Source: an uncultured Fodinibius sp.
Lineage (GTDB): Bacteria; Bacteroidota; Rhodothermia; Balneolales; Balneolaceae
Length of the DNA: 64,000 nucleotides
Assembly (NCBI GenBank): GCA_913056235.1
Contig: CAJXMW010000004.1
Span: forward strand, 62,001 to 126,000
Direction of reading: 5' to 3'
Part shown: positions 44,199 to 49,772 of the stretch, in pieces
Layout of the letters: every line of letters starts with the position of its first letter
How positions within the stretch are numbered: position 1 is the stretch's first letter
The notes under the pieces: generated by a model
Databases searched by the model: none
What the model was told of the DNA's origin: nothing
The model's input: only the letters and a program-made list of their open reading frames with translations
Translations under genes and position numbers: made by a program

Positions 44199-45518
44199 TT
44201 AATCTACTCGTTTGAGTAGGGCCCCAAAGTGGCCGTCGCAGTTATGCTTGTGTGGGAAGGTCTGGTAGGCAAGTCCACCGTGAACCATGACTTCATCAGG
44301 CACATAACCTTCGACGCTCTGCATTTCAAAGTTTTCGTGTCGATCAAGGAAGCTCATGACCTGCTCCATATTCTCTTCCTCTTCGAGTGAGCAGGTGCTG
44401 TAAACCAGACGTCCGCCTTTCTCAACCATCTTAGCGGCAGAGTCTAAGAGCTTGGCCTGAAGCTCAACGGCATTTTTAAGCCCTTCTTTGTCGCGACGCC
44501 AGCGCAGGTCAGCTCGCTTGCTGAGAACACCGGTGCCGGTGCAGGGTGCATCGAGTAGAACACCATCGGCTTCGGGTAGCTCAAGCTCAGTGACATCAGC
44601 GCGCCGCACGCGAATATTTTCGGCGTGATAGGAGAGGGCGCTCTGGGCCAGATTATCGAGACGCTCGGAAGAAATATCAACGGCCAAAATGTCGCCTTCA
44701 CCATTCATGAGGTCCGACATCAAAACGCTTTTGGTGCCGGGTGCAGCGCAGAGATCATAGATGGATTCATCAGATTTGGGGTCCAACAAATAGGGTGCAA
44801 AACCGGCGGCAATATCCTGTACCTGGCAGAAACCTTTGTCGAGCCATCCTTTTGAGATGAAGGGCGCAACACTATCTACCTGAAAATAGCCCGGAAGCCA
44901 GTCACTTTCTTGAAAGTCAATGCCGTGCTTGGTCATCCGCAGCTTAAAATTCTCGGTTTTGGTGCGCAGGTTATTGGCCCGGATATAATAAGTTGGGCGT
45001 TTGTTGTTGGCCTGCATCAGCTGAAACGCTTCGCGCTCTCCAAAGCGATCAGTCCATCGTTTGACTAGCCATTCGGGATGCGAAAAGGTAGTCGCTACCA
45101 GCTTGGCTCTATCCTCAAAGTTAGGCTTGGGCAGATCGTCAATATCTCGCTGCAAGTTGCGCAGAATAGCATTGGTCAGATCGCCGGTGCGCGAGCCAAG
45201 TGAATATTTGGCAATTTCGACAGATTCGTTGATGGCAGCGTAATCAGGTGTGCTATCCATAAACACCATATCATAGACGCCCAGCCGAAGAATGTTCTTC
45301 AGCTTTGGCTTCATCTCGTCGATGCCGACATTGGAAAATTCATTAATCAAAAAATCGAGGTAAGAACGCCGCCTGAGAATATTTTGGACATACTCGCGTA
45401 CTTCAGCACGATCGCGACTCTCGAGTTTATCCGCGCGGGCATAGTCGAGAGTTCCATTTTCATCAAAGTCTATTAATATTTCTACGCTAACAGAGCGAGC
45501 TGATGTCTCAGTTTCCAA
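44199..45518 (-). CDS. rsmB: 16S rRNA (cytosine-967-C5)-methyltransferase RsmB-like
   Basis: This 439-residue protein has an N-terminal NusB-like RNA-binding domain (about 1-140; VEILIDFDENGTLDYA, RLGVYDMVFMDSTPDYAAINESVEIA) and a C-terminal SAM methyltransferase domain. The latter shows LCAAPGTKSVLMSDL (about 258, SAM site), the motif IV DAPCTGTGVLSKRADLRW (about 325) and motif VI YSTCSLEEEEN with the second catalytic Cys (about 380). The likely reaction is m5C formation in 16S rRNA. The start is TTG at 45518; the frame opens only a little further upstream and has no better codon. Confidence 0.9.
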   Translation of the reverse strand: METETSARSVSVEILIDFDENGTLDYARADKLESRDRAEVREYVQNILRRRSYLDFLINEFSNVGIDEMKPKLKNILRLGVYDMVFMDSTPDYAAINESVEIAKYSLGSRTGDLTNAILRNLQRDIDDLPKPNFEDRAKLVATTFSHPEWLVKRWTDRFGEREAFQLMQANNKRPTYYIRANNLRTKTENFKLRMTKHGIDFQESDWLPGYFQVDSVAPFISKGWLDKGFCQVQDIAAGFAPYLLDPKSDESIYDLCAAPGTKSVLMSDLMNGEGDILAVDISSERLDNLAQSALSYHAENIRVRRADVTELELPEADGVLLDAPCTGTGVLSKRADLRWRRDKEGLKNAVELQAKLLDSAAKMVEKGGRLVYSTCSLEEEENMEQVMSFLDRHENFEMQSVEGYVPDEVMVHGGLAYQTFPHKHNCDGHFGALLKRVD

Positions 45519-45717
45519 TGCAATAATTTTTTCGGTTAAACTTTTCGCTTATAAAAATGTAAATCGCGCCAAATAGGTTGCCATAGAGCTAAACACTGCT
45601 CCGGATCAAATATTGTTTTTCTGTATCAGAAAAAGGATTTAACAGGTTGCCAAAAATACGGGATTAGCATGGGAGTTGCTAATGGATAATCCCCAAAAAT
45701 TGAAATGGATGTGTGGG

Positions 45718-47040
45718 TTATCTATTTCGGGAATGGGCAAGATAGTAAACCGGCAAGCCCAGCGCTAATATGCCAATTCCCACCAGAGCCCCCCAACCTG
45801 TGAACATGACGCTTGAATAGAGCAAGTACAGGCAGACGAGCATAAAAAGGATGGGGGTAAAAGGGTACAGTGGAACTTGGAAGGCTTGACTGTTGAGTTC
45901 GGATCGATTTCGAAAAATAAGTAGCGAAGCTGTTGTCAGAAGGAAGAAGAACCAAAAGACCGGGGCTGTATAGTCGACCATTGTGGAAACAGCCTCCTGG
46001 GTAAAGGTGCCAAGAATTACAAGAGCGAAACTGATACCACCTTGAACAAGCAGTGCGTTAATAGGGGCATTGTAGGAGCGATTCCATTGTCCAATGTACT
46101 TGAGGAAGGAAAAATCGCGTCCCAGGGCGTAGTTGGTACGGGCACCGGTAATGATCGTAGCATTGGCCGTGGAAAGCGCAGAGATGATCACAATTATGGC
46201 CATTATAAATGATCCTTTAGTACCGAAAATAGCATTTGTAAGTCCAACGCCGATGGTATCGGAGGAGCGAAGCTGCTCGAGCCCCAGCACTTGCAAATAG
46301 GCCGTATTAATAAGCACATATAATAAAGTAATCACAGTGAGTCCCACCAGTAGCACTCGGGTCATATTTTTCCGAACGTCTTTGATCTCAGCGGACAGAT
46401 AAACTCCTTCATTCCATCCGCCATAGGTAAGCAGCACAAAAATCATGGCAGCCCCTGCTGAGCTCGTTCCCGTGCTTGGGGACGTTGCCGGCGAAGCTGC
46501 TTCCATGCCTGATAAAACACCTGCTAACCCACATAGTAACAGGATGCTGACGATAAGAGTCGTCATCATATTTTGGACATTCTTGGACGGTTGTGTGCCT
46601 AGAATATTAAGTCCTGTTAAGACAATGACGGTGAGTCCAGCATAGATGGACGAGCTGTGAGCCCCCAAATCATAAATAACGGAAGCATAATCCCCCAGGA
46701 TAAAGGCGGCAAGGGCAATGGACCCGGTTTGGATCACCGTCATGCGTCCCCACGAAAAAAGAAATCCCAGGGAGGAGCCAAAAGCTTCGGTAAGAAAATA
46801 GTATTCCCCCCCAGCATCGGGCTTGTTGGTCGCCAGTTCGGCGTAACAGAGTGCACCGATGATCGAGATGATGCCGCCGGCTACCCAAAAGGCAATATAG
46901 TGAAGTTCGGTTGCTGAATTTTGAGCTACCATCGAAGGCAGTCGGAAAATGCCAATACCTACGACAATACCTATAATTACAGCTATAGCACTTATGTTAG
47001 TAAATATCTTAAGCGGGGAGCCCGTCTCTGTTTGACTCAT
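45718..47040 (-). CDS. APC superfamily amino acid permease
   Basis: This 440-residue inner membrane transporter has about 12 hydrophobic segments. Segment 1 carries the unwound GVGIFRLPS motif (about 22), and the loop after segment 2 has LCYAELATNKPDAGGEYYFLTEAFG (about 62), both typical of LAT/APC amino acid exchangers. The conserved FVLLTYGGWNEGVYLSAEIKD lies near residue 208. The substrate is a neutral or cationic amino acid by family, not determinable here. It starts at an ATG 43 bp after the methyltransferase-like gene on the same strand; they may form a two-gene unit. Confidence 0.9.
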   Translation of the reverse strand: MSQTETGSPLKIFTNISAIAVIIGIVVGIGIFRLPSMVAQNSATELHYIAFWVAGGIISIIGALCYAELATNKPDAGGEYYFLTEAFGSSLGFLFSWGRMTVIQTGSIALAAFILGDYASVIYDLGAHSSSIYAGLTVIVLTGLNILGTQPSKNVQNMMTTLIVSILLLCGLAGVLSGMEAASPATSPSTGTSSAGAAMIFVLLTYGGWNEGVYLSAEIKDVRKNMTRVLLVGLTVITLLYVLINTAYLQVLGLEQLRSSDTIGVGLTNAIFGTKGSFIMAIIVIISALSTANATIITGARTNYALGRDFSFLKYIGQWNRSYNAPINALLVQGGISFALVILGTFTQEAVSTMVDYTAPVFWFFFLLTTASLLIFRNRSELNSQAFQVPLYPFTPILFMLVCLYLLYSSVMFTGWGALVGIGILALGLPVYYLAHSRNR

Positions 47041-47083
47041 AAAAATTCACAGAAGATTATTAGCCGAAAGCGATTCCCGGAGA

Positions 47084-47932
47084 TTATTGTGAGGCTGTCC
47101 ATTTCATAAAGTTCTTTTCATCTCCGTTGTGACTTTGCATCATGCCCGTTATTTGATTGCCTTCTACGCGTCCGCTTAAAATGTATGTCTGTGATCCGTT
47201 AGTGGCCCGCACCGTAAGACGACGTCCCTGGAGCTGTGCTTTTTTAATAGTATAATTGGTTCCAGTCCCGTCAGACAGGTCGACAGTGATCTCCTGAAAT
47301 TTTTGTTCCACATCCATGGAAAAGTTAGTACCGTTATGTGACCATTTCCACACGCCATCTACTTTAGCGGGAATCACCCAGTAATAGATTTCGTGACTGC
47401 CAGAACCGGTGTTGGTTTCAATAACTTCTTCTTTATCTGGTTTCCATTCTCCCATGTCAAAACTGTGAGAAACGACTTCTGTTCCAGGTTCTAATTTGCT
47501 CAGCAGTTCGGGGCGCAACTTTTTATTTACCGATGGCAGTAGATACATGGTTATTACGGAGGCTTTGCTAAAGTCGGTATTAAAGATGTTGGCCTTCATA
47601 AACATAATTTGGTCATCAACACCGGAGTTGAAGGCATTCTCTCGGGCTTCTGCAATACGTTTGGGATCGAGATCTATGCCGTGGCCGCTGGCTCCGCGCT
47701 TGGCTGCTGCAATAACGATGCGTCCGTCACCGGATCCCAGGTCAATCACATAATCGCTGGGTTGCACGTCAGCCATATCGAGCATCCGTTCTACAACCTT
47801 GTCGGGAGTGGGCACGTAGGGAACATCAAGATCTTGACCAACACTTTGGGAAGGAATAATTAAGAATCCGGCTAAAAGTAGCGCAAGAAAAGCTAAAAGT
47901 TGTTTTAATATTGACTGGAATAGTTTATTCAT
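47084..47932 (-). CDS. exported SAM methyltransferase-fold protein with C-terminal beta domain
   Basis: This 282-residue protein starts best at the ATG at 47932 (the frame also opens at a GTG at 47941). It begins with a strong signal peptide ending near SVGQ (about residue 30), followed by VPYVPTPDKVVERMLDMADV and the class I SAM-binding motif VIDLGSGDGRIVIAAAKRG with GIDLDPKRIAEARENA. The SAM motifs look intact. The last about 100 residues form a separate beta-rich part (NYTIKKAQLQGRRLTVRA, YILSGRVEGNQITGMMQSH). A methyltransferase fold outside the cytosol is odd because SAM is cytosolic; the signal may instead be a membrane anchor. Substrate unknown. Confidence 0.78.
   Translation of the reverse strand: MNKLFQSILKQLLAFLALLLAGFLIIPSQSVGQDLDVPYVPTPDKVVERMLDMADVQPSDYVIDLGSGDGRIVIAAAKRGASGHGIDLDPKRIAEARENAFNSGVDDQIMFMKANIFNTDFSKASVITMYLLPSVNKKLRPELLSKLEPGTEVVSHSFDMGEWKPDKEEVIETNTGSGSHEIYYWVIPAKVDGVWKWSHNGTNFSMDVEQKFQEITVDLSDGTGTNYTIKKAQLQGRRLTVRATNGSQTYILSGRVEGNQITGMMQSHNGDEKNFMKWTASQ

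Positions 47933-49772
<1,840 letters not shown>

Follow-up and report, generated by a model that had tools for sequence, protein, structure and literature searches.

How would a methyltransferase work beyond the cytoplasm? SAM chemistry is regarded as cytosolic and, to our knowledge, no pool of SAM is known outside the bacterial cytosol, which is where an exported methyltransferase needs it. The question is raised by a gene in the window (the whole stretch of 64,000 nucleotides analysed here, from an uncultured Fodinibius sp.) that encodes a methyltransferase domain behind a predicted export signal and lies beside the gene of an APC permease. The locus comprises the following features.

47084..47932, minus strand: gene of the predicted exported methyltransferase (P0001), 282 aa; NF041081 E 1.8e-37, PDB 5bxy E 1.5e-47
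47837..47932, minus strand: predicted signal peptide, residues 1-32, from hydropathy and charge; likely cleavage after S-V-G, before Q
47366..47827, minus strand: SAM-dependent methyltransferase domain, residues 36-189; motif I DLGSGDGR at 64-71
47087..47359, minus strand: calycin/avidin-like barrel, eight strands, residues 192-282, from AlphaFold2 and structure searches
45718..47040, minus strand: LAT-type APC permease, 440 aa, 43 bp downstream of the methyltransferase gene; PF13520, 6f2g

A predicted export signal precedes the methyltransferase domain

The methyltransferase gene begins with an ATG at 47932 and ends with a stop codon at 47084-47086. Residues 12-26 form a strong hydrophobic stretch with K3 and K10 ahead of it (10-residue hydropathy maximum, 3.1), and after codon 1 the frame contains no further ATG, GTG or TTG before codon 40, a codon already within the conserved VPYVPTP motif of the domain. 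Since there is no in-frame start before codon 40, the N-terminal signal is, on the evidence of the reading frame, translated together with the domain, which bears out the signal peptide or anchor proposed in a first-pass annotation of this DNA. At the likely cleavage place, the alignment has Gly or Ala followed by Gln in the closest three relatives (L003-L005) as well.

The family set comprised 69 loci from one genome-collection scan and the members from 6 of 148 genomes of the window’s phylum, giving 87 aligned sequences with the window included, whose N-termini were classed by a script using hydropathy, charge and cleavage patterns (lipobox, A-x-A and Tat-like). A hydrophobic N-terminus was found in 84 of the 87; the other three are L045 (no signal), L061 (cut by the contig end) and one L017 copy (assigned a short start). 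The 84 hydrophobic N-termini included 36 matches to a loose lipobox, of which at least two (in L012 and L017) look like chance, together with 23 matches to A-x-A, 3 to the Tat-like pattern and 22 to none, and positive charge was higher before than after the hydrophobic stretch in 71. The first-pass annotation had pointed to a start codon further downstream, without the hydrophobic segment, as the way in which the signal could prove spurious. The window gene stands on this point, but the relatives are weaker: only 28 of the 84 lack an alternative start codon in or beyond the stretch, which means that the absence of other starts settles the matter for the window gene but not for every relative.

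Cyanobacterial members typically consist of a lipobox, a Pro/Thr/Gln-rich linker and then the domain. Cysteine is absent from the domain part in 63 of the 87 sequences. Close to where the methyltransferase domain ends, a single copy from each of L010, L011, L012, L014, L015 and L016 (6 of 27 full-length rows of the alignment) has a C-x3-C pair, which may possibly form a disulfide. There was no Rfam match in 45500-48400, and signals in a promoter and terminator scan were no commoner than chance.

The domain is of aKMT/FAM173 type and its SAM pocket is intact

Motif I (DLGxGDGR), the N-terminal VPYVPTP segment and the seven-strand SAM fold together identify an aKMT/FAM173-type methyltransferase. 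The domain matches generic methyltransferase profiles in Pfam, and its score against the archaeal protein-lysine methyltransferase profile NF041081 (E 1.8e-37) is 128.6 bits, below the cut-off of 200, so we treat the window protein as a homologue and do not class it as the archaeal enzyme. By sequence, the structures matched are 5bxy (E 1.5e-47), 5fa8 and 5jwj; a search with the AlphaFold2 model of the whole protein (mean pLDDT 93.2) returned 5bxy first, followed by the SAM and SAH complexes of aKMT (5fa8, 5fad). The Sulfolobus protein-lysine methyltransferase aKMT (5fa8, 5fad, 5jwj), solved with both SAM and SAH, shares fold and motifs with window residues 37-187 at 45-46% identity in the structural alignment; it differs in being a small protein (chains of 161-172 residues) without signal or barrel.

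The closest solved relative is 5bxy, a Salinibacter ruber protein crystallised with SAH that has 51-52% identity to the window protein and differs from it in having no barrel. It corresponds letter for letter to residues 51-206 of L007, a family member whose open frame begins with a signal peptide and whose permease gene lies 204 bp away, although an in-frame ATG at codon 43, after the signal, makes a shorter product possible for L007; the crystal shows SAH binding, not the cellular location of the protein. The depositors’ label for 5bxy is ‘RNA methyltransferase’; nothing here supports RNA as substrate, and the label appears doubtful because the matching open frame carries a signal peptide.

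D64, G68 and G70 are identical in all 87 aligned sequences and position 87 is always acidic (D in 48, E in 39), which agrees with the earlier description of DLGSGDGR as an intact motif. Because 5bxy, the domain of a signal-bearing relative, crystallised with SAH, the fold of this family is judged to bind a SAM-type cofactor, and the pocket is, as far as its residues tell, intact in the window protein. Of the possibilities raised in the first-pass annotation, loss of the SAM pocket is thus rejected, and binding of something other than SAM by the fold is not supported. On the acceptor side, N136, W163, F158 and the TMYLL..N motif are retained in the family, and the acceptor-facing residues T128, N136, L139, S155, F158 and W163 are kept in 83 to 87 of the 87 sequences.

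Some members carry a C-terminal barrel

The first-pass annotation had also set apart a beta-rich C-terminal region. The domain is real, but its boundaries needed correction, with the methyltransferase occupying about residues 36-189 and the beta part about 192-282. Structure prediction and a Foldseek search, both of which had been proposed for this region, resolved it into a barrel: folded alone by AlphaFold2, residues 188-282 gave eight strands at a pLDDT of 96.0, the top Foldseek matches were fatty-acid-binding proteins (FABPs) and wilavidin/agroavidin (best E 2.0e-3), and a second structural aligner matched about 90 residues to streptavidin and avidins with Z 11.4-12.5, including a streptavidin variant with 91 residues aligned (Z 12.5, rmsd 1.9). 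The predicted model thus fits a calycin/avidin-like barrel. Sequence identity to streptavidin/avidin and fatty-acid-binding proteins is 8-16% in the listed rows; no Pfam family scored above its cut-off for the barrel in 27 members, and none of the 27 matched an avidin profile at E 0.1; the likeness to avidins seen here is one of fold. Many relatives end before the barrel, so that the full-length alignment has 27 rows, window included, and the barrel is absent from most cyanobacterial members that are also permease-linked.

A subfamily of APC permeases is linked to the methyltransferase

The neighbouring permease belongs to PF13520 (AA_permease_2; E 7.6e-42, 144.1 bits against a cut-off of 27), scores below the cut-off of the L-type amino acid transporter profile TIGR00911 (176.6 bits against 701.8) and matches the BasC structure 6f2g at E 2e-50; among LAT-type APC exchangers (BasC, b0,+AT, LAT1), its closest structures are BasC and LATs. 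A relative of this permease occurs in 37 of 78 loci (L001-L078), one of them (in L021) only 29% identical. When the open reading frames of 76 loci were clustered, the permease was the widest partner (37 loci), the methyltransferase itself and an antisense frame aside; the next groups reached at most 19 loci and were, as far as seen, not common to several phyla.

A survey of the neighbourhood in related genomes, likewise proposed in the first-pass annotation, gave the clearest result, with 29 of 29 close permease copies adjacent to a methyltransferase, on the same strand, in 28 genomes out of 840 from four phyla. Here a close permease is one at E <= 1.2e-116; at a wider cut-off of E <= 1e-60 the permease was found in 41 genomes, 28 of them linked, and the other 13 hold only distant permeases with no methyltransferase nearby. 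Three of the 28 (G000, G148 and G154) were seeds of the sampling in which the methyltransferase was known beforehand, and without them the count is 25 of 25. We caution that these counts are not independent events, as many genomes within a phylum are related.

By phylum, the pattern was as follows. Among 148 genomes of the window’s phylum, the methyltransferase was found in 6 and the permease (E <= 1e-60) in 7: five close permeases (E <= 1.3e-119) are all adjacent to a methyltransferase, and two others, 33-34% identical, occur without one. Adjacency was seen in G081, in G147, in G108, whose pair has no further window gene nearby, and in G122, whose gene order is reversed; G119 has a methyltransferase alone, with no permease, and the window’s genome has a second permease (35%) that is unlinked. 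In the phylum of G148, reached by way of a Nostoc locus, 15 of 146 genomes have the methyltransferase and 13 the permease, and all 14 permease copies adjoin a methyltransferase. For the phylum of the betaproteobacterium G154 (299 genomes), the corresponding numbers are 8 and 10, with four close permeases (E <= 1.2e-116) adjacent and six at 36-41% identity without a methyltransferase. The 247 genomes from the phylum of the acidobacterium G150 were searched by the permease alone, after the idea of linkage had been formed; it was found in 11, and each of the six close copies (E <= 2.2e-124) is followed immediately downstream by an exported methyltransferase, in three cases by a pair of them, while five permeases at 32-35% have none within about 1.5 kb. 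The module therefore recurs in at least four phyla and in both gene orders.

The pair is also found on plasmids. In 72,556 plasmid records the permease occurs in four and the methyltransferase in five, and all four permeases are adjacent to a methyltransferase: in Agrobacterium salinitolerans (17 bp overlap), in Chelatococcus sp. CO-6 and in two records of Leptolyngbya boryana (17 bp apart). In all of them one gene is annotated simply as an amino acid permease or transporter, the other as a methyltransferase or hypothetical protein. The fifth methyltransferase plasmid, from Gloeothece verrucosa, has no permease beside the gene; this copy (L196) has type I-D CRISPR genes on one side and a Calx-beta protein on the other.

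Export and permease linkage go together. Of 121 distinct methyltransferase copies, 61 are linked, 43 are exported and unlinked, 12 have too little flank and 5 lack a signal; all 61 linked copies have a hydrophobic N-terminus. The signal-less copies are L144, L147 and L045, which are complete, and L061 and L134, which are truncated, and no permease was found near the three complete ones (for L045, one of the flanks extends 1.4 kb). Pairwise distances of permease and methyltransferase in linked pairs are correlated (r 0.884; 0/999 permutations), to which shared genome ancestry contributes. A separate link to ATP synthase, suggested by atpD-atpC next door in the window and by the methylation of ATP synthase subunit c by FAM173B, was rejected because these neighbours are not conserved: no atpD relative was found in the 19-20 kb covered in each of G108, G119, G122 and G147, and in G081 other reading frames lie between.

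Unlinked members, sister permeases and gene arrays

No close permease lies within 2.5 kb in 43 of the 104 exported copies with enough flank, including those of Acidobacteriota, Bryobacterales and many delta- and betaproteobacterial loci, and in the three surveys that searched for both genes 7 of 29 methyltransferase-bearing genomes lack a close permease. Some members must therefore manage without the permease or use another supply, and these unlinked exported members are the main difficulty for the reading in which the permease supplies SAM.

R99, D117 and E/D211 are present in 56 of 57 linked permeases, L021 being the exception. We rejected these residues as a mark of SAM transport, since they are also present in all six sister permeases without a methyltransferase (from six Pseudomonadota genomes, at 36-41% identity). 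In a permease tree the sisters fall inside the linked group with weak support (0.275), with no clear separation. The sister permeases (L138-L143) adjoin a beta-lactamase-type lipoprotein, an AMP nucleosidase or a TonB receptor.

One contig has a variant arrangement: in L021 (3248-6116), a signal-bearing COMT-type methyltransferase, a family member with a lipobox and the distant APC permease, only 29% identical, stand in a row on one strand. This locus points to the cofactor, because SAM is what its two unrelated exported methyltransferases are known to share. In 249 genomes the COMT-type enzyme has distant relatives, the best at 35-38% identity, with 45 genomes reaching E <= 1e-12, and a pattern scan of the loci gave no other convincing exported methyltransferase, using a pattern that would miss that of L021 too. 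Tandem arrays of divergent exported methyltransferases were seen in L012, L014 and L015 (3 copies each), in L017 (6 copies) and in L104 (4 full copies and a fragment); those of L017 and L104 end with a permease.

Cofactor supply and alternative interpretations

The export signal, the intact SAM pocket and the permease linkage are supported by sequence or structure; from these we infer that the enzyme is active outside the cytosol and accepts lysine, that SAM and/or SAH is the cargo of the permease, and that the barrel has a role with the substrate. The reading we prefer, to which we give slightly less than an even chance, is an exported aKMT/FAM173-fold methyltransferase, probably protein-lysine-specific, that is fed SAM, perhaps in exchange for SAH, by its own permease. 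The methyltransferase would leave the cytoplasm by its signal and work beyond the cytoplasmic membrane, where its acceptors would most likely be lysines of proteins; the LAT-type APC permease would carry SAM from the cytosol to the exported enzyme and could plausibly swap it for SAH, which inhibits the methyl-transfer reaction, thereby clearing the product; and the barrel, which only some members have, would serve to bind or recognise the substrate. A lysine acceptor is suggested because the nearest solved relatives after 5bxy are those of aKMT and because N136, W163, F158 and TMYLL..N are kept. That the permease may carry SAM is suggested by its linkage and by the SAM carriers Sam3 and Gap4 of the APC superfamily, described in the available text of PMC5177730 as amino acid permeases that transport SAM in yeasts; these are fungal importers, and the linked bacterial permeases would be putative SAM carriers of the same superfamily. 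Exchange of SAM for SAH is described for SLC25A26 in mitochondria (PMC9239748, available text). The first-pass annotation had taken the permease as a pointer to the substrate: the linkage confirms that the permease matters, but cofactor supply would fit it better. We put forward more tentatively, as a possibility, the broader view that several phyla methylate outside the cytosol, with an APC permease exporting SAM (probably against SAH) to a methyltransferase, exported or lipid-anchored, whose targets are proteins of the surface or periplasm, and with the gene pair travelling together, plasmids included.

An alternative interpretation is that the enzyme works outside on a small amine or amino acid and that the permease takes up or delivers this acceptor or its product, not SAM. 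A permease of the LAT amino-acid type (BasC, LAT1), a barrel resembling ligand-binding calycins and the inseparability of the two genes in the surveys are all consistent with this, but we consider it unlikely because it leaves the SAM supply unexplained, because the second, unrelated exported methyltransferase with a permease in L021 points to the cofactor, and because the barrel is missing from most linked cyanobacterial members. It is less likely still that the exported protein is no longer an enzyme and serves as a tethered receptor, capturing SAM or SAH outside so that the permease can import it. Lipoprotein anchoring next to a permease does recall substrate-binding proteins, and the pocket binds SAH (5bxy); however, the acceptor side is conserved as strongly as the SAM side (83 to 87 of 87), and arrays of 3 to 6 divergent copies (L012, L014, L015, L017) are ill-suited to the capture of one ligand.

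Two further readings, both very improbable in our judgement and to the same degree, draw on the mitochondrial FAM173 enzymes. As described in the available text of PMC9006661 and PMC10238732, FAM173A/B are archaeal-KMT-like, as is the window protein, share with it a hydrophobic N-terminal stretch, which PMC9006661 gives as a putative transmembrane anchor, and methylate membrane proteins, namely the adenine nucleotide translocase (FAM173A, ANT-KMT) and ATP synthase subunit c (FAM173B, ATPSc-KMT); they differ in being mitochondrial, on the matrix side and uncleaved, and a barrel or linked permease is not described in that text. The permease might accordingly be the methylated target itself, as strict gene pairing and the methylation of a membrane transporter by a homologous mitochondrial enzyme (PMC9006661, PMC10238732, available text) would allow, but FAM173 targets face the compartment that holds SAM and the enzyme here appears to face the opposite way, and several methyltransferases per permease (L017, L104) would be odd for one target. 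Alternatively, the N-terminal stretch might be an anchor in reversed orientation, holding the enzyme at the cytosolic face of the membrane, as in FAM173 (PMC9006661, available text), and 22 of the 84 stretches do fit no cleavage pattern that was applied. Against this stand the 62 of the 84 with a lipobox, A-x-A or Tat-like pattern and the 71 with more positive charge ahead of the stretch than behind it, which make action on the inner face of the membrane, an option that the first-pass annotation had kept, unlikely.

Novelty and significance

No report of a module of exported methyltransferase and permease was found in the literature searched, a search that mostly left subscription papers outside; titles on a ‘secreted methyltransferase’ concern Plasmodiophora, plant-infecting protists, clubroot, host chromatin and M. 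tuberculosis. The exported aKMT/FAM173 homologue is a variant form, and its constant pairing with one permease subfamily is undescribed in the literature searched. Because of the linkage, a single permease, a single enzyme and laboratory hosts are enough to test the question. Were the protein a receptor and not an enzyme, the methyltransferase fold would have been put to a new use. If our preferred reading of SAM supply by the permease is true, some bacteria move SAM out of the cytosol and methylate proteins of the cell surface, a modification seldom sought there, and the module may be a bacterial counterpart to mitochondria, in which FAM173 enzymes share a compartment with a SAM/SAH carrier.
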